DNA from: Eubacteriaceae bacterium ES3
Lineage (GTDB): Bacteria > Bacillota > Clostridia > Eubacteriales > Eubacteriaceae
Direction: 5' to 3'
DNA: 64,000 bases
NCBI GenBank assembly: GCA_030586155.1
Contig: CP130741.1
Location: 2,350,680-2,414,679 of the forward strand
Part shown: piece by piece, positions 27,448-59,505 of the stretch
How positions within the stretch are numbered: position 1 is the first letter of the stretch
How the letters are laid out: every line of letters starts with the position of its first letter
Position numbers and translations under genes: made by a program
Notes under the pieces: generated by a model
Seen by the model: the letters and a program-made list of their open reading frames with translations, nothing else
What the model was told of the DNA's origin: nothing
Databases searched by the model: none

Positions 27448-28632
27448 TTAAACGAGATATGCTTCCATAATACCCATGTAAGACTCAACGGCACCGGTCA
27501 ACTGACCAAGTTCGATGTACTCATCGATGGTATGAGCCAGTTTCTCATCAGACGGCCCCAAACCAATTGTCTCAATTCCCGCTTCTCCCGCATAATGGCT
27601 GCCGTTAGTGCAGAAGTTGTAATAGGTCACTTGCGGTTTGAAACCTTTGTCTTCAAGATGCTTTTTAACAGTCTGAACAGTTTCTGAATTTTCATCCATC
27701 AGCCATCCAGGAAAGAAACGCTCGCCTTTTATCTTTTCACCAGTATAGCAATCTTCTTCGCCAACAGCAAAAGAAACTTTGGCATCAACCTCTTTGTCTT
27801 CCGCGGACAGGGCATCAATCACAGCCTGAATGGGTGCCAGCACGCTTTCTTTGGTATCCCCAACCAGTAGTCGTCGGTCATAAGTTGCCTTGCAGTAAGA
27901 CGGTACAACCGATGCACCTGGATAAGGACTTGATTTGATATCAGTCAGTTCCAGAATCCCTTTGCCCAGAATCGGATGGACCGGTGCTTCGATTTCTCGG
28001 ATTGCCCCAATCACCTTAGCCATTGCATAGACCGCGTTTTTACCAGCCTCTGGACTGGCCGAATGGGCCGGTACACCAAATGTTTCCACAACCACTTCGC
28101 CTCGTCCCCGCTGTCCAATCTTTAGATTTAAGTTGGAAGCTTCGCCAATTACCACCAGGTCCGGCTGAACCGACTCACTCATCTTTCTGGCTGCGATTCC
28201 TTCAAAGCACTCTTCATGAACAATCCCTGCCACATATATTTCACCAGGAAATTGCTTCTGAGTCTTTTTAGCAAACTGAGCTGCCGCACTGGCCATAGCA
28301 GCAATAGCCCCTTTCATGTCCGAAGTTCCTCTTCCATACAGACGATCTTCCACTATTTCGCCAGCAAAAGGGTCCTTGCTCCAATCAGCCAGATCTCCAA
28401 CAGGCACCGTATCCATATGTCCATCGAAAAGGATTTTTTTCCCTGGTGCGTTTCCTTTTATAACACCATAAATGTTGCCATAGGCATCGACGACAGCATT
28501 ATCAAATCCGTTATCATTAAAAAAGTTCTCCAGGACACCAGCCACACCGCTTTCATTGCCTGAATAAGACTCCTGCCTAATCAGGTCCTGACAAAGTCCG
28601 ATCACCTGTGATTTCTGTTCTTCATTTAACAT
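27448..28632 (-). CDS. ygeY: YgeY-type M20-family amidohydrolase
   Basis: A 394-residue di-metal M20 peptidase/deacylase of the YgeY selenium-linked group. LFDGHMDTVPVGD holds the first metal ligands and catalytic aspartate; YGRGTSDMKGAIAAM supplies the bridging aspartate; AGIVHEECFEGIA carries the catalytic glutamate; GQRGRGEVVVETFGVPAHSA and TYYNFCTNGSHYAGEAGIETIGLGP follow. In purine clusters it probably cleaves an acyl or carbamoyl group from a ring-opened intermediate on the way to 2,3-diaminopropionate. The ATG at 28632 has AGGAGG upstream; ygeX ends 11 bases before it. Confidence 0.9.
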   Translation of the reverse strand: MLNEEQKSQVIGLCQDLIRQESYSGNESGVAGVLENFFNDNGFDNAVVDAYGNIYGVIKGNAPGKKILFDGHMDTVPVGDLADWSKDPFAGEIVEDRLYGRGTSDMKGAIAAMASAAAQFAKKTQKQFPGEIYVAGIVHEECFEGIAARKMSESVQPDLVVIGEASNLNLKIGQRGRGEVVVETFGVPAHSASPEAGKNAVYAMAKVIGAIREIEAPVHPILGKGILELTDIKSSPYPGASVVPSYCKATYDRRLLVGDTKESVLAPIQAVIDALSAEDKEVDAKVSFAVGEEDCYTGEKIKGERFFPGWLMDENSETVQTVKKHLEDKGFKPQVTYYNFCTNGSHYAGEAGIETIGLGPSDEKLAHTIDEYIELGQLTGAVESYMGIMEAYLV

Positions 28633-28643
28633 AGTATTCCTCC

Positions 28644-29840
28644 TTATGGTCTTGGATACAGACCGTCCCAAACGATACTGCGATAGTTGTCTTTGTCTGT
28701 ATCCCCTTCAGTGCTGATAAAAAGCAGTGAAGAGTTTTCATTAATACCAAGCTCTTCCTTAATACTTAAAAACTTGGGGTTGGTCAGAATCTCATAGGCT
28801 GCTCCCAAACCAGCGGCCCCACTCTCTCCTGACACGATCCTGCTATCATCGCCTTCCGGTGATGACAGGACACGCATTCCCTGAGCCGCAACATAGTCAT
28901 CGCAGGCAAGGTAATGATCAGCATAAGCTCTAAGAATATCGATACCTACCGTTACCGGCTCGCCACAAGCGAGACCAGCCATAATCGTATCCATATCACC
29001 ATCAACCACATGAATCTGGCCGTCATTGGCTTTCATCGTTTTATAGATACAAGCTGCTTCAGTTGGTTCCACAATAATGATTTGTGGTTTATCTTCACCA
29101 TAAACTGAAGCCAGGAATCCAGTTACCGCTGAGGCAAAAGATCCTACACCAGCTTGAAGAAAGACATGGGACGGCTTCTTACCGTCTAACTGCTGATAGA
29201 TTTCATATGCCAGGGTCATATAACCCTGGATGATGTGAGTTGGGATGGTTTCGTAACCTGGCCAGGAAGTGTCCTGAACCATAACCCAGCCATTGTCGTT
29301 GGCATTTTGACTAGCTAGTCTTACAGCATCATCATAATTCATATCGGTTATTGAAGCATCTGCCCCTTCGCTGCGAATGTTGTCCAACCGTTCCTGAGCA
29401 CTACCCTTTGGCATGTAAATCACACATTTTTGCTGCAACTGGTTGGCCGTCCAGGCCACCCCTCTACCATGGTTACCATCGGTAGCCGAAATGAAAGTCA
29501 GATCGCCCAGACGGTCTTTAACTTCACTGGAGATCATTCGTTCAAAACTCAAATTTTCGATTGGCTCACCCAGTTTTTCAGCAATATACTGGCCGATGGC
29601 GTAAGATCCGCCAAGCACCTTAAAAGCATTAAGACCGAAACGGTAGGATTCATCCTTAACATGGATTTCTCCCACACCAAGCTGACTGGCAAGGGATGAC
29701 AATTCCCTTAACGGGGTCTCCTCATAAGCCGGAAAAGTCCGATGATAACCGACGACTTTCTCCGCGACTTCCATACTGACATGGTCAAGCCCCGGTTTAT
29801 TATTTTTTTCATCACTGCGATGTACAATCTCTATAGACAT
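28644..29840 (-). CDS. ygeX: Diaminopropionate ammonia-lyase
   Basis: A 398-residue fold-type II PLP lyase converting 2,3-diaminopropionate to pyruvate and two ammonia via 2-aminoacrylate. HVKDESYRFGLNAFKVLGGSYA carries the PLP lysine; SATDGNHGRGVAWTANQL, VQDTSWPGYETIPTHIIQGY and LQAGVGSFASAVTGFLAS are family signatures, the last being the PLP phosphate site. The length matches E. coli YgeX/DpaL. It lies between the fused Mo hydroxylase and ygeY in one operon, and is the likely final carbon-releasing step of purine breakdown here. Confidence 0.95.
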   Translation of the reverse strand: MSIEIVHRSDEKNNKPGLDHVSMEVAEKVVGYHRTFPAYEETPLRELSSLASQLGVGEIHVKDESYRFGLNAFKVLGGSYAIGQYIAEKLGEPIENLSFERMISSEVKDRLGDLTFISATDGNHGRGVAWTANQLQQKCVIYMPKGSAQERLDNIRSEGADASITDMNYDDAVRLASQNANDNGWVMVQDTSWPGYETIPTHIIQGYMTLAYEIYQQLDGKKPSHVFLQAGVGSFASAVTGFLASVYGEDKPQIIIVEPTEAACIYKTMKANDGQIHVVDGDMDTIMAGLACGEPVTVGIDILRAYADHYLACDDYVAAQGMRVLSSPEGDDSRIVSGESGAAGLGAAYEILTNPKFLSIKEELGINENSSLLFISTEGDTDKDNYRSIVWDGLYPRP

Positions 29841-36923: not shown

Positions 36924-36927
36924 AACG

Positions 36928-38061
36928 TCACCCAATTTTTCCAGTTAGCGCACCAGTGGGACACACATCCACACAAAGACCGCATTGTCGACACTTTTGC
37001 TCGTCAAACTTCATCTCCGGAAAATCAATCTCTCGAGCATCATAGCAACAGACTGTCACACACTTTCCACAATCGACACAATGGGCTTTGCCATTCTCAC
37101 AATAAGCATTGAAAGAAAATGTGAAGGGAGTCATGATTTCCTCAGAAACCATGTGCTCCAGAGCCACGCGATGAGCCTTGTCAACAGAGTCATAGCCCAG
37201 CGATTTTAGTCGTTTGGACAGGTCATAGCACATTTGTTCCACTGTTTCGACACCTTTAAGAATCCCAACCGTACAAAGACCCAAGCCGTAAGCACCGGCC
37301 ATCAGGTATTCGATGGCGTCATCCACTTTCATAATACCGCCGGTGGCATACAAGTTTTTTAGCTCTGGATGCTTTTTCGCAATATCAGCATTTATCCTTA
37401 GTGCGATTGGCCTAATCGCTTCTCCGGTGAGATAGCCGTAGCCGCCAGGCGTCATCATCGCTGGACGACCGGTAGTGACATCAATCTTCAGGGCCGGGCC
37501 GATAGAGTCAATGGCACAGATACCATCAGCACCCCGTTCAAGGCATTCACTGCCAATCTCAACCACATCCGGCCAGTTGCCACTGAGTTTACAGATAACC
37601 GGAATATCGACATGATTTTTAGTGTACTCCAGCATCGGAAGCATGGTGTCTTTCGTATAGGAAACCAGCTCAATCATATGGGCTCCTGCCAGTTCGGCAT
37701 CTCTGACGATGGCTTTGGCTTCTTCCGGCGTGTGGCCCACACTGGCAATTAAAGTCGCACCTGCTGCTACCGATTCAGGAATCTCCTTCTCATACCATTG
37801 AAGCCGATCAATATCCGCCCATTTCTCGCTGTTAATCAGACTGGTATTACCAATTCGACTCATATGGTTGGTCGGGTTTTCAGCCGCTTCAAGCCTGATG
37901 GTCTTTGTGACCACTGCACCAAACCCTGCCTGATGGGCCTTGATAATCCCTTCCGCCGCATAAGACAGCGGACCTGATGAAAGGATAAAGGGGCTTTGCA
38001 GCCTTTTTCCACAGAATTCAATATCGATTGCCGCACCTTCTAATCGGTTCTTATCAAACAT
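36928..38061 (-). CDS. PreA-like dihydroorotate/dihydropyrimidine dehydrogenase-fold reductase
   Basis: A 377-residue protein with an FMN-binding DHOD-type barrel (FILSSGPLSYAAEGIIKAHQAGFGAVVTKTI, ICKLSGNWPDVVEI, NLYATGGIMKVDDAIEYLMAGA; residues ~15-300) followed by two [4Fe-4S] motifs, CVDCGKCVTVCCYD and CRQCGLCVDVCPTGAL. This is the PreA layout, which in bacteria pairs with an NAD(P)H-oxidising PreT to reduce uracil. No PreT homologue is in the window, so reducing power may come from ferredoxin. In this operon it could reduce a purine- or pyrimidine-like ring before HyuA opens it. Confidence 0.88.
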   Translation of the reverse strand: MFDKNRLEGAAIDIEFCGKRLQSPFILSSGPLSYAAEGIIKAHQAGFGAVVTKTIRLEAAENPTNHMSRIGNTSLINSEKWADIDRLQWYEKEIPESVAAGATLIASVGHTPEEAKAIVRDAELAGAHMIELVSYTKDTMLPMLEYTKNHVDIPVICKLSGNWPDVVEIGSECLERGADGICAIDSIGPALKIDVTTGRPAMMTPGGYGYLTGEAIRPIALRINADIAKKHPELKNLYATGGIMKVDDAIEYLMAGAYGLGLCTVGILKGVETVEQMCYDLSKRLKSLGYDSVDKAHRVALEHMVSEEIMTPFTFSFNAYCENGKAHCVDCGKCVTVCCYDAREIDFPEMKFDEQKCRQCGLCVDVCPTGALTGKIG

Positions 38062-38064
38062 TTG

Positions 38065-39384
38065 CTATTCCTCCGTATTTACAGACCAGAAGCCCTGTGC
38101 CGCCGATCGCATTTCTTCTTTTACTTCCACCGCATTTATCGTCAGCAGTTTGCCATTGCGTTTAAGCCATTTGCCATCCACCATAACGTCCATGACATTT
38201 TGGGGATTCATAAAGAGGACAATCTGCTCATAAACATTGTGATCAGTGATTGGCGTTGGCAGATCAAGTGAAACACTGATGATATCTGCATAAGCCCCTG
38301 GAGCCAATTTACCGGCTTGAGGTTTTCCAATCGCTTCTGCCCCCATTTCTGTCGCCATCTTATAGACAGTCTCAGCAGACATGACCTGGGGGTTCTTCTG
38401 GTTGGCTTTGTGCATCAGAAAGGCCCCACGCATCACTTCAAAGAAGTTGTTGATGTAGCCATCGGTTCCCAGACCGACGGTCATACCACGTTCCAGCATT
38501 TTCGTTAAAGGGGCAAACCCTCCGCCCACTTCACAATTGGAAAGCGGCATGGATACAGCCCTGACTTGTCGTTTGGCCAGTATATCCAGCTCTTGGTCTG
38601 AGACCTGTACCACCTGGGAGGCCAGAACCGATTCATCCAGATAATTATGGCCCTCATAAATGTCAACCGGCTTCTCATTTCGGTTTTTAAGACACCATTC
38701 CGGTTCATAATCGCTTTCGCTCAAATGCATATGAATCGTAGTGCCAATACTTTTGGCCATTTCTTTGGCCCTAATCACAAATTCGTCGGAACAGGTGAAA
38801 AGGGTATGGATGCTCATAATACCATCTACGAGCCCTTGAGTTTCACTGGCCTTTTCAATAAATCGCAGGTTTTCTTCCAGCCAGCCAATTCCATTCTCAG
38901 CACTGATTCTTTCACAGGCTTCAATAGAAAGGCGTCCACGCAATCCACTGGCTTCAATGATACTTTTTTCAAGTTCCAGAACCCCCGGTTTGGCCATGGG
39001 TGCTTCCAGTACATCAACAAATGAAGTAACACCGCTTTCAATCATCTCAAGACAGGCCATTTTAGTCGTAGCAGTCACCTCAGCATGATCCACACGATTT
39101 TCAATATATGGCCACCAGTAATCTTCAAGAAAATCGCTAAAATCCTCAACAATCGATGCCACATGGATGCCATGAGACAGAAATCCATACATATGGTTGT
39201 GGCCGTTAACAAATCCTGGCATCAGCATCCTGTCTTCGAATTGAAGCCGCTCATCACAAGGCTCTTTTTCAAAGTCTCTTGTAGGTCCTATACCCATAAT
39301 GATCCCGTCTTCAATCAAAATGCTCCAATTTTTTTTCAAACCGTCTGTGGCCAGTAACCACTTGGCATCCATTATCATTCGCAT
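38065..39384 (-). CDS. Amidohydrolase-family deaminase (chlorohydrolase/SsnA-like group)
   Basis: A 439-residue metal-dependent TIM-barrel deaminase. Metal ligands: MPGFVNGHNHMYGFL (HxH), IHMHLSESD (third histidine with following glutamate), and LGTDGYINN (aspartate). The segment IESGVTSFVDVLEAP is distinctive. It belongs to the guanine deaminase/TrzA/MtaD/SsnA class but is not SsnA itself, which lies at 46289. The substrate could be an amino-purine or cyclic amidine. It follows hyuA by 13 bases and precedes the PreA-like gene by 3, so it works in the same pathway. GGAGG supports the start. Confidence 0.82.
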   Translation of the reverse strand: MRMIMDAKWLLATDGLKKNWSILIEDGIIMGIGPTRDFEKEPCDERLQFEDRMLMPGFVNGHNHMYGFLSHGIHVASIVEDFSDFLEDYWWPYIENRVDHAEVTATTKMACLEMIESGVTSFVDVLEAPMAKPGVLELEKSIIEASGLRGRLSIEACERISAENGIGWLEENLRFIEKASETQGLVDGIMSIHTLFTCSDEFVIRAKEMAKSIGTTIHMHLSESDYEPEWCLKNRNEKPVDIYEGHNYLDESVLASQVVQVSDQELDILAKRQVRAVSMPLSNCEVGGGFAPLTKMLERGMTVGLGTDGYINNFFEVMRGAFLMHKANQKNPQVMSAETVYKMATEMGAEAIGKPQAGKLAPGAYADIISVSLDLPTPITDHNVYEQIVLFMNPQNVMDVMVDGKWLKRNGKLLTINAVEVKEEMRSAAQGFWSVNTEE

Positions 39385-39397
39385 TATGCTTCCTCCA

Positions 39398-40783
39398 TCA
39401 CTTAAAAGATCTTCTTTTGATAAACCGACCCTCGGGTATGACTAGCTTGTCCTGCATCTCATCCAATAGCAGGCCATCCTCAACCACCTGTCTGCCCCTT
39501 AAAAAAACGTGCTCAACGCTGCAATTTGTTTTCCAGTTTTCATATGGTGTGTAATCGACCTCCTGATGTTGACTATCCTTTGAAATGAGCGTTTCCTTAT
39601 CCAGTCGCACAAGGATCAGATCAGCATCACTGCCCACGGCAAGACACCCTTTTTGCGGGTACATGCCAAAGATTTTTGCCGGATTTCCCGATAAAACCTG
39701 GGACAATTGGATCAGATCCATCCCTCTTTCCAAACCATGATGGATAGATAAGACCATTCGGTTTTCAACAGATGGCATCCCTTTGGGAATATTTCTGAAA
39801 TCCGTCAAGTCTTCATCCTTCTGACTATGCAGATTAAAAGAGCAGTGATCGGTGGCAATATTCTGTATTACTCCTTCAAATAGACCCTGCCACAGCTTTT
39901 CCTGGTCTTCCTTTTTACGAAGAGGCGGACTTATCATGAATTTAGCCGCTTCTTGAGCTTCCAACTGGTATCGCTTCTCATCCAAAAGTAAATACTGGGG
40001 ACAGGTTTCAGCGTAAATATCAGAAAAGTTTTTTCGCCCTTCAAGAATCGCATCCAGTCCGGCAGCCGAGCTCAGGTGGACAATATAGATTGGTGCCTGA
40101 ACTTGAGCCGCCAAAGAAATAAAGCTGTCAATTGCTTCTACTTCTGCGTTTTCCGGTCTTGATGCCGGGTAATATGCAGGTGTTAACAACCCTTTATCTG
40201 CCATCTGGTCCTCAAGTCCTTCAATTATCTCACCACGCTCACAGTGACAACTGACCAGGGTCCCTAATTCGCCTGATGTCTTCAGGAGTTCCCTAATTGT
40301 CCCGGTATCGCCCATGCCTTCCAGGTTGGTCATATAGATTTTAAAGGAAGTGACGCCTTGTTCTTTCATTTTAACCATTTCTTCTGGCATCCGCTCATGC
40401 CATTCGATGAGGGTCATATGGAATCCATAATCACACCAGGCTTTCCCCCTGGCCTTATGATGCCAGGTATCAAGAGCTGCTTGAAGAGACTGGCCCTGAC
40501 TCGGCTCGGTAAAATCAATCACTGTCGTTGTTCCACCAGCAAGGGCTGCTCTGGTACCGCGATAAAAGTCATCTGAGGTGGTTCCTCCAGACCAGGGCAT
40601 ATCAAAATGCGTATGGACATCAACACCACCCGGCATCAAAACCATGCCATCTGCATCAATGACTTTTTCTTCAGGTAAAAGCTTAAGCTCAGATTCAATT
40701 TCTGTAATAAGCTCTCCAATTATTCTCAGATCACCACTAAAAATATTTTCTTCTGTAACGATTCTAGCATTCTTGATTAACAT
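39398..40783 (-). CDS. hyuA: Dihydropyrimidinase/hydantoinase-type ring hydrolase
   Basis: A 461-residue cyclic amidohydrolase. GGVDVHTHFDMPWSGG (HxH metal ligands), GVTSFKIYMT with the carboxylated lysine, LVSCHCERGEII and IYIVHLSSAAG (histidines), and QNIATDHCSFNLHSQ (aspartate) are all intact. Such enzymes open dihydropyrimidine, hydantoin or related rings to ureido acids. In selenium-linked purine clusters HyuA probably opens a reduced urate-derived ring. It is the first gene of the eleven-gene operon (40783 to 26600); the region upstream carries a direct repeat and a hairpin that may control the whole operon. Confidence 0.92.
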   Translation of the reverse strand: MLIKNARIVTEENIFSGDLRIIGELITEIESELKLLPEEKVIDADGMVLMPGGVDVHTHFDMPWSGGTTSDDFYRGTRAALAGGTTTVIDFTEPSQGQSLQAALDTWHHKARGKAWCDYGFHMTLIEWHERMPEEMVKMKEQGVTSFKIYMTNLEGMGDTGTIRELLKTSGELGTLVSCHCERGEIIEGLEDQMADKGLLTPAYYPASRPENAEVEAIDSFISLAAQVQAPIYIVHLSSAAGLDAILEGRKNFSDIYAETCPQYLLLDEKRYQLEAQEAAKFMISPPLRKKEDQEKLWQGLFEGVIQNIATDHCSFNLHSQKDEDLTDFRNIPKGMPSVENRMVLSIHHGLERGMDLIQLSQVLSGNPAKIFGMYPQKGCLAVGSDADLILVRLDKETLISKDSQHQEVDYTPYENWKTNCSVEHVFLRGRQVVEDGLLLDEMQDKLVIPEGRFIKRRSFK

Positions 40784-40929: not shown

Positions 40930-41805
40930 TTATTTACCCTTGCTAAATGGTACTCCCAGGGCACAGGGATCGCCTGATTTCTGGCCAAAGACCGAAACCA
41001 TGACAATGGTCAGCACATAGGGAATCATTAAAAGCAGCTGGGTTGGTATGTCACTGCCAAAGGACTGAATCCTGAACTGCATGGCCTCTCCCGCACCAAA
41101 GAGCAGGACCGCCAGCAAAGCACCCACAGGGGTGTATCTGCCGAAAATAACCGCCGCCAGGGCAATAAAGCCACGGCCGCTGACCATATTTTCGGTGAAA
41201 AAAGACAACAGACCCAGTGACAGATAGGCGCCGCCCGCTCCAATAAACATCGAGCCGCCAATGGTACTCAGGTATCGGATTTTTTCAACACTGAGACCCA
41301 CAGAATCAATCGCCGCCGGATATTCACCGGTTGCTCTGACTCTCAGCCCCGGTCTGGTCTTGTACAGAAACAGACTCAGCAGGATAACCGCCAGAATCGT
41401 CAGGTACACCGGCAGGGTAAAACCGCCGCCAATCTCTGTAAATCCTGCCACCTTCATCGACCCTTCCTTCATCCCAAACAGGGTCCGGTAGAGGGTCGTC
41501 GTCAGGCCTTCAGCAATGATATTCAGGGCAATCCCCACCACCACCTGATTGGCTTTGATTCCCACCGTCAGCCAGGCAAAGAGCAGGCCGACCACTGCGC
41601 TGACACCCAGAGCAAAGAGCATTCCCAGCCACACATTGCCAAACAGATAGGACCCGACCACACCGGAAAAGGCACCAATCAGCATCATCCCTTCCGCTCC
41701 GATATTTATCACACCGGCCAGGTGCATGATCAGAATCCCCATTGCCGCCAGAAGAATCGGCGTTGATGTATTTATTACAGTTGTCAGGAAACTTAATAGA
41801 TTCAC
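40930..41805 (-). CDS. Nucleoside/nucleobase ABC permease, YufQ-like (copy 1)
   Basis: A 291-residue hydrophobic inner-membrane permease of the BPD_transp_2 type used with BmpA-family binding proteins (YufQ/NupQ). MNLLSFLTTVINTSTPILLAAMG begins the first helix; HLAGVINIGAEGMMLIGAFSG and RATGEYPAAIDSVGLSVEKIRYLS, the cytoplasmic coupling region, are typical. The GTG start overlaps the preceding permease stop by 4 bases. It is all but identical to 57456-58331. No binding protein or ATPase gene accompanies this copy, so it must share those of copy 2 or be redundant. Confidence 0.93.
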   Translation of the reverse strand: MNLLSFLTTVINTSTPILLAAMGILIMHLAGVINIGAEGMMLIGAFSGVVGSYLFGNVWLGMLFALGVSAVVGLLFAWLTVGIKANQVVVGIALNIIAEGLTTTLYRTLFGMKEGSMKVAGFTEIGGGFTLPVYLTILAVILLSLFLYKTRPGLRVRATGEYPAAIDSVGLSVEKIRYLSTIGGSMFIGAGGAYLSLGLLSFFTENMVSGRGFIALAAVIFGRYTPVGALLAVLLFGAGEAMQFRIQSFGSDIPTQLLLMIPYVLTIVMVSVFGQKSGDPCALGVPFSKGK

Positions 41806-42903
41806 TGGGATACTTCCTTTCTTTCCAACCGCTTTCTTTCAAGAAGCTTTCCTAAACCCTCAGACTTTTTGAAGCTGAACGGCTTGAACTGATCCACCAC
41901 CACAAATATGATAACCAGTCCCTGGATGATATAGATGACGGCAATCGGCAGTCGGGTGAACATCTGAACCGCGTTTCCGCCGCTTCTAAGAGCACCGAAC
42001 AGAATCGAGGAGAAGAAAATTCCGATGGCACTGCTGTTGCCCAGAAGGGCTACCGCAATCCCGTCAAAACCGTATCCAGCCGACAGACCTTCCAGCAGTT
42101 TATGCTGAACGCCCAGCACTTCCATGCTGCCCGCCAGGCCACCGATTCCGCCCGAAATAACCATCGCCATCAGCACCATCCGTTTTACCGGAATCCCTAC
42201 ATATTCAGCGGCGTCTTTGTTGGTTCCCACTGTTGCCATTCTGAATCCCTGGGGGGTATATTTCCAGTAGATATAATAGACCACCAAGGCCGCCAGAGCA
42301 ATGAATAATCCAATCGTCAGCTGGCTGTTGGGAATCAGCTTAATCAGCTTGGCACTGTCCATGATGATGTCCGACTGGGGATAGGTCGCCTTTTCTTCCA
42401 TCATCGGTCCGTTGACCAGGGCTGATACGATATACACTGCCACATAGTTCATCATTACTGTGGTAATCATTTCGCTGGCATTAAAACGGTTCTTTAAAAA
42501 TCCGACAATCCCTCCCCAGAAGGCGCCTCCGATAAAACCTGCCAGGAGTGCCAGCGGCACATGCAGCACCATCGGCAGCTCCATATAGACCGCGACATAT
42601 GTGGAAAACAGGGCTCCCATGTAAAGCTGGCCTTCGATCCCGATATTGACCAGGCCGCACTTATAGGCAAATCCATAGGACAGACCGACAAAAATCAGCG
42701 TTGTCGCTTTGACCAGTGTTGCCGCAATGGCCATTTTTGAACCAAAGGCCCCCTGCCACATGACCTGATAAACTTCCACCGGATTCTGCTGAATCAGAGC
42801 TATGATGAGTGCTCCGAATATCAGCGCAAATACAATGGATAAGAGGGGTTTTATTATATTTGTTTGCAGTTTCATTGATGCCTCCTGAGTATGGTTCAAT
42901 CTT
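40932..42903. repeat. Segmental duplication of the permease pair, copy 1
   Basis: About 1.97 kb matches 57458-59414 with only scattered base changes and one 15-base indel. Similarity stops abruptly just past the distal permease stop on the left and 28 bases before the proximal permease start on the right; the promoters beyond are similar but more diverged. Confidence 0.93.
41802..42875 (-). CDS. Nucleoside/nucleobase ABC permease, YufP-like (copy 1)
   Basis: A 357-residue permease with about 8-10 membrane helices, YufP/NupP type: LVNIGIEGQLYMGALFSTYVA, NRFNASEMITTVMMNYVAVYIV, and MATVGTNKDAAEYVGIPVKRMVLMAM (cytoplasmic loop contacting the ATPase). It pairs with the next permease to form the channel. 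Compared with copy 2 (58328) it has a five-residue tandem insertion near the C-terminus (ERKRLERK against ERK). ATG 42875 follows CAGGAGG; a longer frame upstream crosses the leader and is not used. Its promoter and a leader terminator lie at 42971-43104. Confidence 0.92.
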   Translation of the reverse strand: MKLQTNIIKPLLSIVFALIFGALIIALIQQNPVEVYQVMWQGAFGSKMAIAATLVKATTLIFVGLSYGFAYKCGLVNIGIEGQLYMGALFSTYVAVYMELPMVLHVPLALLAGFIGGAFWGGIVGFLKNRFNASEMITTVMMNYVAVYIVSALVNGPMMEEKATYPQSDIIMDSAKLIKLIPNSQLTIGLFIALAALVVYYIYWKYTPQGFRMATVGTNKDAAEYVGIPVKRMVLMAMVISGGIGGLAGSMEVLGVQHKLLEGLSAGYGFDGIAVALLGNSSAIGIFFSSILFGALRSGGNAVQMFTRLPIAVIYIIQGLVIIFVVVDQFKPFSFKKSEGLGKLLERKRLERKEVSQ

Positions 42904-43115: not shown

Positions 43116-44492
43116 CTAAAAGCTCTTTTCTCTTTGATACATCACTATCTCCGTTGCCAATTGATTTGCTTTTTTTGCCATCTCATCGGTATCTATTGAA
43201 GTCAATTCTCCATCCTTGGCAACAATTTTCCCATTTACAATCGTCATCTTTGTATAGGAATGATTTCCCAGAGAAACCAGGGATACTAATGGATCATGGC
43301 ATCCCGCATAGGCAATGTCGTTCAGATCAAAGAGAATCAGATCTGCCCCCATATTCTCTTGAATATAACCGATATCATTTCTACCAAGAACTTCAGCGCC
43401 CCCTCTTGTTGCAACTTTTAGACACTCATATGCGTTTAATCCCTGGGTTCCGTATTTTAAATGATTCAATAAATACATCCGCCTTACTTCTTCCCACATG
43501 TTTGATCCATCATTGCTGGCACTGCCATCAACAGCCAGACTGAGTTTTGCTTTACTTTTCACCAATTCGCTGGTTCTACAGATTCCACTGTTTAATTTCA
43601 TATTGCTTGAAGGACAATGGGCAATTCCACTACCATTCAAGCGAGATATTTCCTGATCATTCAAGTAAATGCTGTGGGCAAACCAAACATCTTGTCCGAC
43701 CCATTCTAAGGATTCCATTAATTCAAAGGGGCGAAGTCCATATTTCTCTAAACAAAATTTTTCTTCATCTTTTGTTTCTGCCAGATGGGTATGAAGCATC
43801 ACTTTATTTTGCCTCGCCATTTTAGCTGTTTCTTTCATCAGTGAATCCGTAACCGAAAAAGGCGAACACGGTGCCAGGGCAATTCTTGTCATCGCAAAAT
43901 CGCCAGTGTCGTGATAGCTGTCAATCAGCCTTTGAGAATCATTTAAAATCTCCGTCTCTGTTTGCACAACACTCATCGGCGGCAGACCCCCATCATCTAC
44001 CCCTAGTGACATAGACCCTCTGGTTGCATGAAAGCGGATCCCAATCTCTTTTGCTGCTTTAATCTGAGTATCGATCAGCTGACTGCCAGCCCCTTGTGGA
44101 AAAACATAGTGGTGATCTGCCGTATAGGTACAGCCGGTTCTCAATAATTCACTCATCCCAACCATTGCACCATAATAAATTGCTTCTTCATCCATATGCT
44201 GCCAGAATTGATATAATCCTTTGAGCCAGGGAAATAGGGGTAATTCCTGAACCTCTTTTATTCCCCGAAATAAAGTCTGATACAAGTGATGGTGGGTATT
44301 TACAAAGCCTGGTAAAGCTACCAGTCCATTGCAGTCAACCACCTGGTTAACTTTTGTGTACTTTTCATCCAAACTTTTGCCAATTTCCATAATGACCCCA
44401 TCTTCCACAAAGAGATCAGTCTCCTCTAAAATTTCATCATCATGATTAAAAGTATAAATTGTTTTAATTTTTTTCAACAGTAAACTGGACAT
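43116..44492 (-). CDS. 8-oxoguanine deaminase-like amidohydrolase
   Basis: A 458-residue TIM-barrel deaminase. LPGFVNTHHHLYQTLFRG (HxH), LPLFPWLKGLYQFW, and TCTYTADHHYVFPQGAG match the 8-oxoguanine/isoxanthopterin deaminase group; LHTHLAETKDEE, VWFAHSIYL and LAVDGSASNDGSNM give the other metal and base residues. Deamination of 8-oxoguanine yields urate, which fits a route in which a Mo hydroxylase oxidises guanine at C8. ATG 44492 is chosen, with AGAAAGGATCG upstream; longer starts run into the leader terminator. It is monocistronic, and the downstream permease operon starts 240 bases on. Confidence 0.85.
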   Translation of the reverse strand: MSSLLLKKIKTIYTFNHDDEILEETDLFVEDGVIMEIGKSLDEKYTKVNQVVDCNGLVALPGFVNTHHHLYQTLFRGIKEVQELPLFPWLKGLYQFWQHMDEEAIYYGAMVGMSELLRTGCTYTADHHYVFPQGAGSQLIDTQIKAAKEIGIRFHATRGSMSLGVDDGGLPPMSVVQTETEILNDSQRLIDSYHDTGDFAMTRIALAPCSPFSVTDSLMKETAKMARQNKVMLHTHLAETKDEEKFCLEKYGLRPFELMESLEWVGQDVWFAHSIYLNDQEISRLNGSGIAHCPSSNMKLNSGICRTSELVKSKAKLSLAVDGSASNDGSNMWEEVRRMYLLNHLKYGTQGLNAYECLKVATRGGAEVLGRNDIGYIQENMGADLILFDLNDIAYAGCHDPLVSLVSLGNHSYTKMTIVNGKIVAKDGELTSIDTDEMAKKANQLATEIVMYQREKSF

Positions 44493-44530
44493 GATCGATC
44501 CTTTCTGATCAAGCAAGTGGTTATGGGCAC

Positions 44531-44574
44531 AAAAAAACCACATTATTTACTCGATCTGAGTATTTAATGTGGTT
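44531..44574 (-). terminator. Intrinsic terminator inside the 8-oxoguanine deaminase leader
   Basis: Minus strand AACCACATTA..TACTC / GAGTA..TAATGTGGTT plus TTTTTGTG: a long stem with a small internal mismatch. It follows a good promoter by about 25 bases and precedes the start codon by about 40, again an attenuator position. It would also terminate the ygfK operon. Confidence 0.78.
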
Positions 44575-44682: not shown

Positions 44683-46296
44683 TTAATGATGACCTGTTTT
44701 CAGAAACTCCCTTAAACAATTCGACCAGCTATCGTTTTTTAAAAACATCTTTACTTCATGCTCATCATTACGCAAATGATCTTCGCTATCACTATAAACG
44801 CCAGGATTACTACTGTTTTCGAACCCTTCTCTGGTCGAAAATAGCGTGAACTTAGCCTGATAGGGTTCATGCCCTTTTATACAGTATAAGCTGCATAAGC
44901 CACATTCATTGCAGAGATCATCAATATGAATAACGACCTTTTTTTGTTCCAGCTCAATCACACGATTAGCCCGGTTAGGACATAGATCCACACAATTATT
45001 ACAGGCTGAACATAATGACGTATAGGCTTTTGCCTGTTTGAAAATTTTTCTTTCCTTGTATTGATACAAGCTTTCTTCACAAGCACTTAAAGATAAATTT
45101 TCCAGTTTTTCCAAATCAATGGTCGCCGGACAATCAACTCCCGAAGCTGCAGTAATCAGGCGATTAAAATTCTTGTAACCACCTGACTTCAGTAGTAAAG
45201 ATGAAACGGTTACCGGCTTAATGCCACAGGCCAGGATATCAGAGATGTTATGCTCATCCGCACCGCCTGAATAAGATATGGGCAGTTTACCATCAAACTG
45301 CCTGGCCAGAATATCGGCTACGCCAATTGCTATAGGATAAAGGGCTGGTCCTGATAAGTACATATTATCACCGGTGAGTTCATGATTAGCATTTTTTACC
45401 GGAAGTGTATTCGTAAGTTTAACCCCGAATATTTTTCCATCTTTTTCAGCTTCTGACATGAGTCTTTTGAGCATATCTACGGCACTGTCCAAATCGATAT
45501 CCAATTCAAAAACATGGTCGTCCAATAGAATATGCTGATAGCCTTGCTTATCAAGAATGCTTCTGACGCTCTCTTTACCTAAAAGCGTTGGATTTAGCTT
45601 GACATAAACATTCATAACCTTATTTTTAAGGAGATGTCCGGCAATTACTTCAATCTCCTCTTTCTTGCAGCCGTGCATGGTAGAGAGGGCAATGGTATTG
45701 CTGATAAAAGGACTGATATTTTTAATATAATCCCTTGAAATATTGTCAAACAAATCCACATTTTCCAGCAGATAAGCGATATCTTTTTTCCATTCCTCAG
45801 CTTGGGAGGCATCCATAAGTTGATTGATAAACCCATCCACAGGCTCACTTTGTATCCCTGCTAAATCATATCCAACGCTCATAATGAATTCAAATTCATC
45901 GGGATCACCCAGATCGAATTCCTTTATCAGCACTTTTAGAAGAAGATAGGCTTTGATATATTCCGCTTTCGCTTCTTCGATAGACAACTCAGTCGACCAT
46001 TCTGTATTAAAAACTTCTGTGGCAGCGTATATACAGGGTTTGACAATTCCTAATGCTTCACCCGTCAGTATCTGAACAGTTTTCAGTTCAAAGCAGGACG
46101 CGCCCGCCCCATAAGCGGCGACAATATTTCCCGCAAGCTGCGTATGCGGGCCAGCAGCAGGACCTATATTTTGCCCCGTTGAACAGTTTTTATTTCTGTC
46201 TACCGGGACATCAAGAAAGCATTTTTTTTCCTTATATCCTTTAAGCAGATCTGCTAAAAGCATTTCAAACGAAATCGGCACCATTACATCACTCAT
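44683..46296 (-). CDS. ygfK: Short YgfK-type reductase lacking the NAD(P)H oxidoreductase module
   Basis: A 537-residue protein whose N-terminal ~420 residues match the DHOD-like barrel of YgfK (IGPAAGPHTQLAGNIVAAYGAG, FELKTVQIL, STEWSTELS-type FNTEWSTEL, FIMSVGYDLAGI, ALSTMHGCKKEEIEVI, LPISYSGGADEHNI). This is joined directly to the YgfK C-terminal ferredoxin part (CSACNNCVDLCPNRANRV, CNECGLCSLYC) and tail (FTLFSTREGFENSSNPG). YgfK of E. coli is about 1,030 residues because a GltD-like FAD/NAD(P)H module lies between; that module is cleanly absent here. YgfK is needed for anaerobic urate use and was long called a selenate reductase subunit. ATG 46296 overlaps the ssnA stop by 8 bases. Confidence 0.9.
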   Translation of the reverse strand: MSDVMVPISFEMLLADLLKGYKEKKCFLDVPVDRNKNCSTGQNIGPAAGPHTQLAGNIVAAYGAGASCFELKTVQILTGEALGIVKPCIYAATEVFNTEWSTELSIEEAKAEYIKAYLLLKVLIKEFDLGDPDEFEFIMSVGYDLAGIQSEPVDGFINQLMDASQAEEWKKDIAYLLENVDLFDNISRDYIKNISPFISNTIALSTMHGCKKEEIEVIAGHLLKNKVMNVYVKLNPTLLGKESVRSILDKQGYQHILLDDHVFELDIDLDSAVDMLKRLMSEAEKDGKIFGVKLTNTLPVKNANHELTGDNMYLSGPALYPIAIGVADILARQFDGKLPISYSGGADEHNISDILACGIKPVTVSSLLLKSGGYKNFNRLITAASGVDCPATIDLEKLENLSLSACEESLYQYKERKIFKQAKAYTSLCSACNNCVDLCPNRANRVIELEQKKVVIHIDDLCNECGLCSLYCIKGHEPYQAKFTLFSTREGFENSSNPGVYSDSEDHLRNDEHEVKMFLKNDSWSNCLREFLKTGHH

Positions 46297-47632
46297 ATAG
46301 TTTCCTCCATAATTCGGCCGCGCTTTCCACACATTTAGCCGATAAGTTTTCGGTGTCAGCCATCATCTTCTTATGCCGCATCAAAACTTTTCCATTGATA
46401 ATTGTGGTGTCTGTATGATTTCCGGTAATACCAAAGAAAAGATGGCCATCAATGTTACTTTCATTAAGCGGTGTATAAGGTCGATAGTCAACAATAATCA
46501 CATCGGCTGCTGCGCCTTCTTTTATTATACCTAGAGTCTCACCAAATATTTTCGAAGCGATTCTGGCATTATTTTCAAATAACATCGCTGACGTTTCTGC
46601 AAAGCCTCTATCCGGATTCCCGCTTTGGTGCTTTTGCAGTACCAGGGCAGCCTTTGCCGATTCGAGCATGTCAAAGGTATATCCATCAGTACCAAGACAG
46701 ACGGTTATCCCTTTGTCAATCATTCTCAATACATCCGGTACGCCCACAGCATTTGCCATATTGGACTGGGGATTATGGATAACGGTAACACCTGATTCTT
46801 TCAGAATATCCATATCCTCTTTAGAAATATGGACACAATGGCCTGCCAAAGTATTCTCGTTCAATATGTCAAAACGCTTCAATCTTTCTACCACTGAACA
46901 TCCATATTCTTTTAAGGAATGTTCCTGGTCATAAAGGCCTTCAGCAACGTGTACATGATAACCAATTTTCCGGGAATTTCTTTCTTTGCAAATTTTGAGT
47001 GTTTCATCACTCAGCGTAAACGAAGCATGTAAACCGATCAGGGTTTCAATCATTGTGCTATTTTCAAGACTTTCTGCGAAGTCAAAAGACTCTTCTACCG
47101 CTTGCAGCATTTTCTCTTTTCCGTCTCTATCTGATATTTCATAAGAAAGACAGGTTCTTACACCTGTTAACGCGGCCGCTTTTTCCAACGCATACAGACT
47201 TCCAGTCACTTCTTTATAGCTTGCATGATGGTCAATTAATGTTGTCACACCATTTCTGATACATTCAAGATAAGCTGCAATTCCAGAGTTATAAGTTTCT
47301 TCCAGTGTCATATGCCGGTCTAAATTCCACCAGGTTCCTTCCAGAATTTCCAGAAAATTTTGAGGATGGTTATCCGGTATACTCATCCCTCTGGCAAAAG
47401 CACTGTAAATGTGATGGTGGGCATTGATATAGCCTGGCATTATAAACATTCCCTGTGCATCAATATAATCTGAACCGGGATATTTCTGCAAAAGGACCTG
47501 GGTCTCTCCAACTTCTTCGATGTGATTTGCGTCTATCACTAATGCTCCATTTTTTAAAAAAGGTCTTAATGGATCTCTGGTAATCAGCCTTCCATTTCCT
47601 ATCAATATTTTTCCGGATTTCGTCATCGTCAT
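46289..47632 (-). CDS. ssnA: Aminohydrolase SsnA
   Basis: A 447-residue amidohydrolase of the SsnA group associated with selenium-linked purine clusters. IMPGYINAHHHIYSAFARGM (HxH), EGTWWNLDRHMTLEE, TTLIDHHASYKEVTGSLYALEKAA, YHVHVAEGLYDQEHSLKEYG, VCLGTDGYTFDMLE and a C-terminal SAAELWRKLYE all match SsnA. It is required with YgfK for urate breakdown in bacteria that have it, and the two are coupled here (8-base overlap, with the ygfK ribosome site inside ssnA). The start could be the ATG at 47632 or the one two codons later. Confidence 0.93.
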   Translation of the reverse strand: MTMTKSGKILIGNGRLITRDPLRPFLKNGALVIDANHIEEVGETQVLLQKYPGSDYIDAQGMFIMPGYINAHHHIYSAFARGMSIPDNHPQNFLEILEGTWWNLDRHMTLEETYNSGIAAYLECIRNGVTTLIDHHASYKEVTGSLYALEKAAALTGVRTCLSYEISDRDGKEKMLQAVEESFDFAESLENSTMIETLIGLHASFTLSDETLKICKERNSRKIGYHVHVAEGLYDQEHSLKEYGCSVVERLKRFDILNENTLAGHCVHISKEDMDILKESGVTVIHNPQSNMANAVGVPDVLRMIDKGITVCLGTDGYTFDMLESAKAALVLQKHQSGNPDRGFAETSAMLFENNARIASKIFGETLGIIKEGAAADVIIVDYRPYTPLNESNIDGHLFFGITGNHTDTTIINGKVLMRHKKMMADTENLSAKCVESAAELWRKLYE

Positions 47633-47640
47633 GTCTCCAA

Positions 47641-50193
47641 TTATTTAGAATACGGTGTATTTTCAAGCGGCAATGATGTTCTAAAGTTCCCATCCCATTT
47701 ATAGTAAGCGGCCTGTGTTGCAGGCGCTGTCGGGATCAGGGTAATTTCTCCTACCCCTTTCGCCCCATAAGCTAACTCAGCATGATTCTTCTCAATCAGA
47801 ATCGTTTCTATATCTGGTGTATCAGTTGAACGTAAAAGCCCCAATTTTCCAAAGCTTGCTGTCGGACAACCATTTTTAATTTTTAGATCTTCTGTCAACG
47901 CATAGCCCAGGCCCATTACAATACCACCTTCTATCTGACCTTCTACATTAGTCGGATTAATGGCCCGGCCCACATCATGGGCTGCCACTACCTTATCGAC
48001 TTTTCCATCTTCCCCCAGTATAACAACCTGACAGGCGTATCCATACTCCAGATGACTGACCGGGTTTGCTTTATCACTTCCCATCGGATCAGTAATACCA
48101 GTAAATTCTTCATAGTAGACTTTTCCTTCCAGTTCTGAAAGGCTATGATTATTCAGATCCTGTGCGAGTTTAAGGCTGGCCCTTCTGGTCGTTTCACCAT
48201 TAATAACCGTTTGCCTTGAAGCTGTACTGGTTCCTGAATCAGGGGTAATATCTGTATCCGGATCTGAGACTATCACGTCTTCTGGTTTCAAACCAGTGGT
48301 TTGACATAAGATTGTTCTCATTGTTTCGGCAATTCCCTGGCCCATGCAGGAGGCACTGGTTCTTAACGATACCTTGCCATCGATAATTACCAGACGTACA
48401 CGACCGGTATCTGGAATCCCCACGCCCACACCTGCATTCTTGATGGCACAGGCTATGCCAGCGCGTTTATAGTTATCATAATAAGCATCTTTAACTGCTT
48501 CAATACACTCCAAAAGTCCAGTACCTTCATCGACAATCTGTCCATTGGGCAAAGTCTGTCCCGGTCTGATAGCATTTAAATGCCGTATTTCATAGGGGTC
48601 TAATCCGACTTTCTCAGCCAGCAAATTAATATTACATTCTGTGGCAAATATCGTCTGTGTTACTCCAAAGCCCCTAAATGCCCCGCTGGGAACGTTATTG
48701 GTATAAACTGCCTTGCCGATTATATCTATATTCTGATAATTATATGGTCCAGCTGCGTGGGTACAGGCTCTTTGCAGGACCGGACCGCCCAATGAAGCAT
48801 AGGCCCCGGTATCAGCGTTCAATCGCAGCTTCATCGCGGTCAGTCTGCCATCTTTATCGCAAGCTGTGGTTAATTCCATCTCCATTGGATGACGTTTAGG
48901 ATGAACAAGAAAACTTTCTTCTCTTGTCAGACTAACACGCACCGGAAGTTTTGTAATATATGCCAGCAGAGCAGCATGATGCTGAACACTCATATCTTCC
49001 TTACCGCCGAATCCGCCCCCAACAACTGCACTTTTTATCCGCAGCTTTTCTTTGGGAATTCCCAAAAGCATGCTTATTTCACGATACTCATCATAAATCC
49101 CCTGACCGCCAGTATAGACAGTTAAACGCTCCTGCTCAGGAACAGCCAAAGCAGTCTCAGGCTCCAGAAAAGCGTGTTCCTGATGAGGTGTTGAGTAAGA
49201 CATGGTCACAACATGGGCTGACTCACGCAAAGCCTTGTCTACTTGACCTCTTTTAATCACTTCTGTCCGGTAGATATTTCCGCCCTCATGAATATCCTCA
49301 GCGTTTTTTTCTATCGCTTGCTCAGCCGATAACATCGGTTCTAATTCTTGGTACTGGACATCAATCAGGTCTTTAATTTCCTGCAGGGCTTCAGAGTTCT
49401 TGGCCGCAACAAGGGCGATACTGTCTCCAAGATAACGTGTTATCTCTCCTTTAGCGATAAGGGCTGGCCAATCATGGGTTAAGTGACCAATGTATCGCTG
49501 ACCAGGTACATCTTCTGCCAATACTATCGCTACTGCATCGGGATGTTTAATCGCTTGCGTTATATCAATATCTTTTACCAGGGCTCTGGGATATCGGGAA
49601 CGCAGGGCACTGCCATAGATCATTCCTTCAACTTTGATATCTTCAACATATTTTGCCGAGCCATCAATTTTACTCATCGCATCCGGCCGAAATGTTCGCT
49701 CACCAATTTTTCCGGTAAATTTCTCTACAGGGATAGGCAAATCCACTCTAAAAAAATCTGCCGCCTGTAGGATTGCCTCCTCGATTTTTTTATAGCCTGT
49801 GCAACGGCAGATATTGCCTTTGATGGCTTTTTTAACATCGCTTGATGAGGGGTTCTTTTCAGTATCTAAAAGGGATTTAGCACTAATAATCATTCCCGGT
49901 GTGCAGAAACCGCATTGCACTCCTCCTGCTTTTTTGAAACAGTAGTCATAAACTTCTTTTTCTCGTTCTGATAGTCCTTCGACCGTTATGATATTTTTGC
50001 CATTAACTTTTGCCGTCGTATTTTTGCAGGCACGTCCTTTTTTCCCGTCGATAAGCACCATACATGCACCACAGGAGCCTTCTTTACAACCATTCTTAAG
50101 GGAAGTGATATCCAGCTCATCTCTAATAAAATCCAAAAGATTTTTATCCAAAGCTGTTGAAATTTCTATGCCATTGACCCAAAATGTATACAT
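47641..50193 (-). CDS. Selenium-dependent xanthine dehydrogenase (fused Fe-S/Mo)
   Basis: An 850-residue fused enzyme matching the selenium-dependent xanthine dehydrogenase family in length and order. The [2Fe-2S] part has LKNGCKEGSCGACMV, VQCGFCTPG and NICRCTGYKKIEEAI (residues 1-150). The Mo part has VVGGGFGGKEDMSV, GAFRGFGVTQTIFATE, CMGQGIAETM and AYGAKGVGEITLIPTAP with the catalytic glutamate. The selenium is a labile ligand of Mo, so no selenocysteine codon is expected or seen. It hydroxylates hypoxanthine/xanthine in known members. The ATG follows AGGAGG, 2 bases after the D-aminoacylase stop. No FAD domain. Confidence 0.92.
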   Translation of the reverse strand: MYTFWVNGIEISTALDKNLLDFIRDELDITSLKNGCKEGSCGACMVLIDGKKGRACKNTTAKVNGKNIITVEGLSEREKEVYDYCFKKAGGVQCGFCTPGMIISAKSLLDTEKNPSSSDVKKAIKGNICRCTGYKKIEEAILQAADFFRVDLPIPVEKFTGKIGERTFRPDAMSKIDGSAKYVEDIKVEGMIYGSALRSRYPRALVKDIDITQAIKHPDAVAIVLAEDVPGQRYIGHLTHDWPALIAKGEITRYLGDSIALVAAKNSEALQEIKDLIDVQYQELEPMLSAEQAIEKNAEDIHEGGNIYRTEVIKRGQVDKALRESAHVVTMSYSTPHQEHAFLEPETALAVPEQERLTVYTGGQGIYDEYREISMLLGIPKEKLRIKSAVVGGGFGGKEDMSVQHHAALLAYITKLPVRVSLTREESFLVHPKRHPMEMELTTACDKDGRLTAMKLRLNADTGAYASLGGPVLQRACTHAAGPYNYQNIDIIGKAVYTNNVPSGAFRGFGVTQTIFATECNINLLAEKVGLDPYEIRHLNAIRPGQTLPNGQIVDEGTGLLECIEAVKDAYYDNYKRAGIACAIKNAGVGVGIPDTGRVRLVIIDGKVSLRTSASCMGQGIAETMRTILCQTTGLKPEDVIVSDPDTDITPDSGTSTASRQTVINGETTRRASLKLAQDLNNHSLSELEGKVYYEEFTGITDPMGSDKANPVSHLEYGYACQVVILGEDGKVDKVVAAHDVGRAINPTNVEGQIEGGIVMGLGYALTEDLKIKNGCPTASFGKLGLLRSTDTPDIETILIEKNHAELAYGAKGVGEITLIPTAPATQAAYYKWDGNFRTSLPLENTPYSK

Positions 50194-50195
50194 CT

Positions 50196-51803
50196 TTACC
50201 TCCTGATAACTTTTCCGCTTCGATTACCGGTAAATTCACCGTTAAGTATCAATGGTATACCATTAACAATAACATGGTCAATTCCTACAGGCTTCTTCTT
50301 AGGCTCGACAAAAGTTCCCCGATCACTAATCGTTTCAGCATTCCATATTACTATATCTGCATAATATCCTTCTTTGAGAAAGCCCCTTTCCTTTATTCCC
50401 ATTGAGGTTGCCGATTTTCCAGACATTTTAGCTACAGCTGCCTCAAGACTTATTACTTTTTCTTCTCTTACATATTTTCCTGCTATTCGCGGAAAAGATC
50501 CGTAAACTCTGGGATGGGGTGTACCTGCCAGAAGTCCGTCGGTACAGGCATTCATCTCATCACGTTTCATAATCTGAATGATATGTTCTTCCAGTCCATA
50601 GAAATCGACCATCCCAACTGCATTTTCTTCTGCCAGAAGCAGATCAAATGTCGCCTCCAGGGCATCCTTACCCTTTTTATTCCCCAGCTCCGCCAAACTC
50701 AAACCGATGACATCCTGATTATGCTCCGTATTGACACTGGTAATAAATATCTGATCAAGACCGGCAAAATCCACAAAATTATCCCAGCCGGGAATGCCGC
50801 TTGCGATATCTTCTTTCATTTTTTGCCGTACCGAGTGATCCCTTAAGCGATCCATAAGCTGATCCGTCCCACCATCATGGGCCCAGGGGGGTAAAATAAC
50901 GCCCAGCATAGTAGAACCCGCCGCATATGGATATTGATCAAATGTTACAGCTATTCCCTCTTCTTTTGCCTCATCCAGTAATTTAAACATCTCCGGGATA
51001 TACTTCCAGTTGTTTTTGCCGCAGACCTTAAAGTGGGAAAAATGAATCTTTACCCCTGTTTTTCGCCCAATTTCTAAAATTTCTTTCATCGAAGTAATAA
51101 TCGTGTCCGCTTCACTTCTTTGATGCACCACAAAAACACCATTATACTCGGCAATAATCTTACATATCGCAATTATTTCACTGGTTTTGGAATAAGCACA
51201 AGGCGTATAAATTAATCCTGATGAAAAGCCCAAGCATCCCGCTTCCATCTCGCGTCTGGTTATTTTGCACATCTGCTCAATTTCTTCGGCAGTAGGCTTG
51301 CGATCGTCCAAACCCATGGCTTCCATTCTGACATTCCCATGAGGCAGCAGATAGCTTTCATTTAAAGCCGGTTTTGCTGCTTCGATCATGGCCAGATAGT
51401 TACTGGTATTTTCATATGCCCAGTCAATCTGGTCGCTGTCTCCATCTAGACCGGCCAGATTTTTTCGCCAGGCTGAAATATACTTTGGGGGTAAAGGCGC
51501 CATCGATATGCCATCCTGGCCCAGAACTTCTGTGGTAATACCCTGGTTGAGTTTAGGCAATAATTCCGGTTCTATCAGTACTGCCAGGTCCGAATGACTG
51601 TGGGTATCGATAAATCCCGGTGACACAATTTTTTCAGCAGCATCGATGATTAATGCCTCCGACTCATTATCAAAAGACCCTGCTGCCGCTATTGCCTGGA
51701 TACGCTCTTCTTTTATCATAAGATCTGCCATAAAAGCTGCCTGGCCGGTACCATCCACCAATGTCCCATTTTTAATTATCATAATCGATTTATTCACCAT
51801 CAT
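50196..51803 (-). CDS. D-aminoacylase-family N-acyl amidohydrolase
   Basis: A 535-residue amidohydrolase of the N-acyl-D-amino-acid deacylase/dihydroorotase-like type. SPGFIDTHSHSDLAVL (HxH), TEVLGQDGISMAPLP, CLGFSSGLIYTPCAYSKT, FVVHQRSEAD, KIHFSHFKVCGK (metal histidine) and ACTDGLLAGTPHPRVYGSFPR (aspartate) are all family motifs. It heads the operon D-aminoacylase > Se-XDH > ssnA > ygfK, so it probably hydrolyses an N-carbamoyl, N-formyl or ureido intermediate of purine breakdown rather than a D-amino acid derivative. ATG 51803 follows AAGGAG; another ATG is next to it. Confidence 0.85.
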   Translation of the reverse strand: MMVNKSIMIIKNGTLVDGTGQAAFMADLMIKEERIQAIAAAGSFDNESEALIIDAAEKIVSPGFIDTHSHSDLAVLIEPELLPKLNQGITTEVLGQDGISMAPLPPKYISAWRKNLAGLDGDSDQIDWAYENTSNYLAMIEAAKPALNESYLLPHGNVRMEAMGLDDRKPTAEEIEQMCKITRREMEAGCLGFSSGLIYTPCAYSKTSEIIAICKIIAEYNGVFVVHQRSEADTIITSMKEILEIGRKTGVKIHFSHFKVCGKNNWKYIPEMFKLLDEAKEEGIAVTFDQYPYAAGSTMLGVILPPWAHDGGTDQLMDRLRDHSVRQKMKEDIASGIPGWDNFVDFAGLDQIFITSVNTEHNQDVIGLSLAELGNKKGKDALEATFDLLLAEENAVGMVDFYGLEEHIIQIMKRDEMNACTDGLLAGTPHPRVYGSFPRIAGKYVREEKVISLEAAVAKMSGKSATSMGIKERGFLKEGYYADIVIWNAETISDRGTFVEPKKKPVGIDHVIVNGIPLILNGEFTGNRSGKVIRR

Positions 51804-51899
51804 TTGTCTCCTTATATATGTCCCATTTGATAGAAACACCTGTCTTCATTATTTAGCGTCTAGTTTCCTAAATCACAAAATAACCATTAATCCACGACT

Positions 51900-59414: not shown

Positions 59415-59463
59415 TTTTCACTAATTGTTTCAATCAAACCTTTTAAATGCTTTGGTATGTGAC

Positions 59464-59505
59464 AAAAAAATAAAAGGCGCATTGATTAAAATCAATAACG
59501 CCTTT
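59464..59505 (-). terminator. Intrinsic terminator inside the permease leader (copy 2)
   Basis: Minus strand AAAGGCG-tt-ATTGATT-tt-AATCAAT-g-CGCCTTT followed by TATTTTTTT, equivalent to 42971-43011. It begins about 30 bases after the predicted transcription start. No other gene needing termination lies between it and the promoter, which favours attenuation. Confidence 0.78.

Follow-up and report, generated by a model that had tools for sequence, protein, structure and literature searches.

A short YgfK in a urate-degradation gene cluster

The window, which is the whole stretch of DNA that we analysed (64,000 nucleotides from Eubacteriaceae bacterium ES3; G000:C1:2350680-2414679), contains genes for urate degradation that encode Xdh, UacY-like, YgeX, YgeY, and HyuA-like proteins (Table 1). 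Four of the genes, in the order uacY-like, selenium-type xdh, ssnA, ygfK, are separated by gaps of 2 nt and 8 nt and then an 8-nt overlap, so we consider them to be one operon. (A scan for promoters and terminators gave a chance-level result.) The Xdh of this operon has [2Fe-2S] and molybdopterin domains and no FAD domain. The reading frame of ygfK is intact, from a conserved "MSD" start at 46296, and as had been claimed in an earlier note on this DNA, the gene is coupled to ssnA, although here ssnA is upstream of ygfK, while in E. coli ygfK precedes ssnA. Just downstream of ygfK is a gene for 8-oxoguanine deaminase (43116–44543; PRK08203, 589 vs 532 bits). The window also contains two copies of a pair of ABC permease genes (40930–42899 and 57456–59482), which are 98.2% identical over 1968 bases.

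Table 1. Genes and protein regions discussed in the text, by position in the window.
Feature	Position	Strand	Remarks
YgeY-type hydrolase	27448..28671	-	PRK13004, 485 vs 321 bits
YgeX, diaminopropionate ammonia-lyase	28644..29840	-	
UacX/PydAc-like reductase	36928..38061	-	DHO_dh barrel (PF01180) and two 4Fe-4S motifs; no FAD domain
SsnA-like amidohydrolase	38065..39384	-	Paired with the UacX-like gene
HyuA/dihydropyrimidinase-like hydrolase	39398..40783	-	
Short YgfK, 537 aa	44683..46296	-	Barrel (probably DHOD-like) and ferredoxin tail with two 4Fe-4S motifs
C-terminal ferredoxin tail of YgfK	44797..45020	-	TIGR03315 885–991; approximately residues 426–500
N-terminal barrel of YgfK	45093..46296	-	TIGR03315 1–427; approximately residues 1–405
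SsnA aminohydrolase	46289..47632	-	Exceeds the cut-offs of both SsnA models (597 vs 444 bits, 559 vs 455.5)
Xanthine dehydrogenase, selenium-dependent type	47641..50193	-	TIGR03311, 1365 bits
UacY-like D-aminoacylase/amidohydrolase	50196..51839	-	PF07969; at the head of the four-gene operon

YgfK from the window has 537 amino acids instead of the 1032 of E. coli YgfK, or about half the length, as the earlier note had estimated. The protein matches TIGR03315, which is the YgfK equivalog model (1012 positions), with E = 5.2e-164 and 547.2 bits, less than the 835.3 bits that the curated cut-off requires. The main match runs from position 1 to 427 of the profile (residues 2–418 of the protein), and the second match runs from 885 to 991. 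The GltD-like FAD/NAD(P)H module, which spans approximately positions 428–884 of the profile, had no match in the window protein with either TIGR03315 or our purpose-made profile models. These models of the parts of YgfK found the barrel and the ferredoxin tail in the window protein and all three parts in E. coli YgfK. When aligned to the long forms, the window protein has its barrel joined directly to its tail. So the earlier note was right that the two ends of YgfK are present and joined, with the NAD(P)H module missing.

Within the remaining parts, the barrel motif LSTMHGC is kept (residues 204–210). The tail carries two C-x2-C-x2-C-x3-C motifs, CSACNNCVDLCP and CNECGLCSLYC, with all 8 of the cluster cysteines present. 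The protein lacks about 11 residues before IGPAAGP, near the N-terminus, and its C-terminus is shortened and divergent. Pfam gave only weak matches to Fer4, and a sequence search of the PDB gave only ferredoxin-type matches, for the tail.

The earlier note described the barrel as DHOD-like. The Pfam model for this family (DHO_dh, PF01180) does not match YgfK from the window, and what favors a DHOD-type fold comes from remote comparisons. Our scan of the collection for close relatives yielded just two loci, so the AlphaFold2 model was built from three sequences and is weak (mean pLDDT of 48, with parts of the barrel at 70–90). In a Foldseek search with this weak model, pig dihydropyrimidine dehydrogenase came first and DHODHs came next. 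With hhalign, a profile of 66 YgfK barrels aligned to PyrD with E = 2.4e-4 and to UacX/PreA with E = 1.9e-3, as compared to E = 0.07–0.29 for four unrelated proteins. Published modelling also places an FMN site in YgfK (PMC12507026). Given the profile comparisons and the model, it is likely that the barrel of YgfK has a DHOD-type fold.

Search for a detached NAD(P)H module

We considered that the NAD(P)H module might act in trans, with a separate GltD-like protein or a GltD-containing complex docking with the short YgfK. There are precedents for this: E. coli PreA and PreT have the same architecture split across two genes, and a separate Pyr_redox_2 gene is common in PydA clusters (PMC7332683). 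Also, the host encodes several free GltD-like proteins. However, the stronger of these fit other families far better: the glutamate synthase small subunit (742 vs 164 bits), a diclust_near_Sec protein (862 vs 88 bits), a NuoG-fused protein of the PRK12814 type (657 vs 306 bits), and a PRK12771 protein (430 vs 290 bits). As the earlier note had stated, there is no other GltD-like gene within the window.

The earlier note also named what would speak against it, namely a GltD-like subunit that is encoded elsewhere. Using a model of the GltD module, we found no detached gene of the YgfK type in the host or in ten other genomes with short forms of YgfK (described below), nor did we find the GltD part of a split gene. 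Across these genomes, the best free GltD scored 330 bits, as compared to 783–806 bits for the modules of two long forms, and each of the ten free GltD matches that we classified is fit better by a family other than YgfK. None of the short forms has an adjoining GltD-like gene. The GltD-like gene in locus L100 of genome G661 is 7.8 kb away from the short ygfK and follows a GltB-like ORF of 1,531 amino acids, so we read it as glutamate synthase and rejected it as a partner. Overall, a module in trans seems unlikely, though a promiscuous partner could escape these sequence searches.

Short forms of YgfK recur

Our searches with the barrel identified YgfK in 13 of 391 genomes from the class and in 50 of 399 genomes from the phylum. 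The comparison set comprises these two samples, relatives, two named loci, and one E. coli sequence. Of its 67 YgfK barrels, 53 were classified as long (though some of these end at the edge of a contig or locus), 11 are short, and 3 are intermediate. The short architecture is present in ten genomes besides the host, including Soehngenia longivitae and a Tissierellaceae MAG. The short YgfK is a natural form, as the earlier note had supposed, and it recurs. The three intermediate proteins (L053, L078, and L111) have about 860 amino acids and lack roughly 140–160 positions of the module, including the NAD(P)-binding part; they keep the 4Fe-4S helical part and an FAD-type dinucleotide motif. So it appears that NAD(P)H input was lost by more than one route.

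On a tree of the barrels, the short label requires three changes, of which at least two are forced by starred branches, but the number of changes on this tree does not by itself separate gain from loss. In particular, one short form (L098, from genome G778) is nested within a starred group that is otherwise long. A single clade of short forms, as expected from a single origin, was rejected by the AU test (p-AU = 0.009). YgfK from the window is on a long branch (1.16) and groups with the short form of G353, a genome from another family, instead of with the two short forms from its own genus; because of the long branches in this tree, exact placements are unsure.

A gene for SsnA directly adjoins 7 of the 11 short forms. 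Another two have SsnA nearby (with one gene in between for L099, and within 5 kb for L098), and none was seen near L096 or L100. (The SsnA near L099, at 6908–8245, is encoded by two adjacent ORFs and is perhaps interrupted by a stop.) Several of the short-form clusters are otherwise like long-form clusters: they include YgeX, YgeY, YgeW, and often YqeA, HyuA, and the selenium-type Xdh. This resemblance is our main reason for assigning short YgfK to the same step as YgfK.

The window protein retains 61 of the 73 columns in which 50 long forms show no variation, including H208, G209, and C210. Other short forms keep 57–69 of these columns and the intermediate forms keep 70–73. Close to where the barrel ends, A365, P371, G372, and R376 are invariant in the long forms and are changed in 3–4 of the 5 short lineages, for a boundary that was chosen post hoc with the data in view. 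These changes are suggestive of a lost contact with the GltD module.

Comparison with known reductases

According to PMC12507026, the conversion of urate to yanthine is carried out by Xdh, and it is yanthine that is reduced by YgfK, so the earlier note was mistaken in taking urate to be the substrate. E. coli YgfK has a barrel that is about 45% identical to the barrel of the window protein and the same kind of ferredoxin tail, and it is paired with SsnA within a urate cluster. Unlike the short form, it has its own Fer4_20/FAD/NAD(P)H module between the barrel and the tail, and its reduction of yanthine uses NAD(P)H as well as SsnA (PMC12507026). In that study, the product of E. coli YgfK was detectable only if SsnA was included, which the authors ascribe to unfavourable thermodynamics. 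A stronger reductant would presumably help this step.

PydAc from clostridia is a precedent for reductases of this type without FAD. Like the short YgfK, PydAc has an FMN domain and ferredoxin clusters, has no FAD or NADPH domains, and is found in strict anaerobes, and its reduction of uracil by reduced ferredoxin has been demonstrated (PMC7332683). However, its barrel is from another family (PydA/DHO_dh), its substrate is uracil, and each of its two ferredoxin domains has 8 cysteines (PMC7332683). Similarly, UacX from Clostridioides difficile stands in for YgfK in a urate cluster and has an FMN barrel without an FAD domain, and ferredoxin is its proposed donor (PMC12507026). Like UacX and PydAc, short YgfK has no FAD/NAD(P)H domain within its chain and, given that no GltD-like gene lies in the window, no adjacent gene for a pyridine-nucleotide oxidoreductase. 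It differs in that the UacX barrel belongs to DHO_dh (PF01180). E. coli PreA is also an FMN/Fe-S subunit with no GltD module on the same chain, but its GltD-like partner PreT is encoded alongside, and no such partner gene was found for short YgfK.

The earlier note's idea of a ferredoxin-driven reductase without FAD was heading in the right direction, but the strategy itself is not new: it has been published for PydAc (PMC7332683) and proposed for UacX (PMC12507026). Among the papers that we searched, none describes this strategy for YgfK.

A second reductase in the window

The earlier note overlooked another reductase in the window and its SsnA-like partner (together, 36928–39384). This reductase is 43–45% identical to genes from two genera of another family, and within the class sample, a close relative was found only in the host and in genome G354. 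In G354, the UacX-like gene sits with YgeX, YgeY, HyuA, and an SsnA-like gene of the same type, whose product is 46% identical to its counterpart in the window. The reductase resembles C. difficile UacX by its architecture and context. It is a second candidate for the yanthine reductase, and the row of UacX-like, SsnA-like, and HyuA-like genes (36928–40783) is a candidate for a second purine-reducing module. With two candidates in the window, short YgfK is not necessarily the main yanthine reductase. A gene of the peptidase M19 family (36033–36935) lies between the Xdh-type genes and the UacX-like gene.

So we also considered that the short YgfK might act on some other purine or related ring, while the UacX-like reductase and its SsnA-like partner handle yanthine. 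This would fit with the presence of two pairs of reductase and amidohydrolase in the window, with the similarity of the UacX-like pair to the pair in G354 that is accompanied by YgeX, YgeY, and HyuA, and with the long branch of the window YgfK. However, the SsnA that is linked to ygfK passes both of the curated models for SsnA, while the UacX-linked protein scores just 252 bits, below the cut-off of 444. Also, short forms that have no UacX-like gene nearby are found in clusters like those of long YgfK, and the passages of PMC12507026 that we consulted give no product for C. difficile UacX acting on yanthine. We doubt that short YgfK has another substrate.

Another scenario is that the UacX-like reductase took over and that the short ygfK is a decaying relict that is losing its function. 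The long branch, the loss of 11 residues near the N-terminus, the short and divergent C-terminus, and the changes at 12 of the 73 family-invariant columns could all be viewed as signs of decay. But the reading frame, the overlap with ssnA, the 8 cluster cysteines, and the LSTMHGC motif are all intact, and the other short forms have kept a similar range of the invariant columns. This makes a relict quite improbable. Finally, an artefact of assembly or annotation has virtually no chance of being the explanation, as the host genome is a single contig, and a frameshift or assembly error is ruled out by the same form in ten other, independent genomes.

Electron supply

Losing the NAD(P)H module implies that short YgfK draws its electrons from something else, most likely a low-potential donor. 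In the whole genome of the host, no gene matched PF00941 (FAD_binding_5, the FAD subunit of Xdh), so the host's several Xdh-type molybdenum enzymes (three of which are in the window) lack the usual NAD(P)H-facing FAD subunit. The host does encode RnfC. Neither YgfK nor the UacX-like reductase has an NAD(P)H input either, and taken together, these features suggest that ferredoxin or a similar carrier is the donor. The earlier note proposed that ferredoxin or another low-potential carrier replaces NAD(P)H. Our results support a donor other than NAD(P)H, and we infer that it is ferredoxin or something similar. RnfC had no match in three of the genomes with short forms (G353, G545, and G609). (We used rnfC because the model for rnfB, TIGR01944, found nothing in 22 genomes at E = 1e-30.)

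We also considered a link between short YgfK and Xdh without the FAD subunit, but the association is not clean. Genome G022, which has a long YgfK, also lacks PF00941, and the same type of Xdh occurs in both short-form and long-form clusters, so one loss does not closely track the other. Between the Xdh-type genes in the window is a flavoprotein of the FMN_red family (32649–33269) with a cysteine cluster (CIHCNKC...C). Its counterpart in G354, which is 43% identical, adjoins Xdh. This flavoprotein is a possible electron carrier.

Proposed role of the short YgfK

We propose that the short YgfK is a yanthine (2,8-dioxopurine) reductase that has no GltD module and receives its electrons from ferredoxin or a different low-potential carrier, and we consider this to be probably correct. 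The enzyme would be an FMN and iron-sulfur protein from the YgfK family whose GltD-like FAD/NAD(P)H module was lost. Its two-cluster tail would be the direct docking site for reduced ferredoxin, or for some other one-electron carrier of low potential, and electrons would flow from the carrier to the two 4Fe-4S clusters, to the FMN in the barrel, and then to the purine ring. Once the ring is reduced, it would be opened by SsnA, whose gene overlaps ygfK from upstream, and this would draw the unfavourable step forward. The substrate and the coupling to SsnA are taken from the literature on E. coli YgfK (PMC12507026); the occupancy by FMN, the identity of the carrier, and the activity of the short protein are what we infer.

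Anaerobic breakdown of urate bears on the purine balance of the gut and on gout. Annotation with the full-length model (cut-off of 835 bits) misses the short ygfK genes. Natural deletions of domains, such as this one, help to show which part of YgfK carries out the ring chemistry. The source of electrons sets the energy yield and the redox balance of the urate pathway. If the short form is driven by ferredoxin, then pyruvate from the end of the pathway could, via pyruvate:ferredoxin oxidoreductase, feed the initial reductions without NAD(P)H. More broadly, we see roughly an even chance that in anaerobes, the NAD(P)H module of YgfK was shed repeatedly, either fully (the short forms) or partly (the forms of about 860 amino acids), in favor of taking the electrons for purine dearomatisation directly from ferredoxin; in the host, where the Xdh-type enzymes have no FAD subunit, the entire four-electron reduction of urate would then proceed without NAD(P)H.
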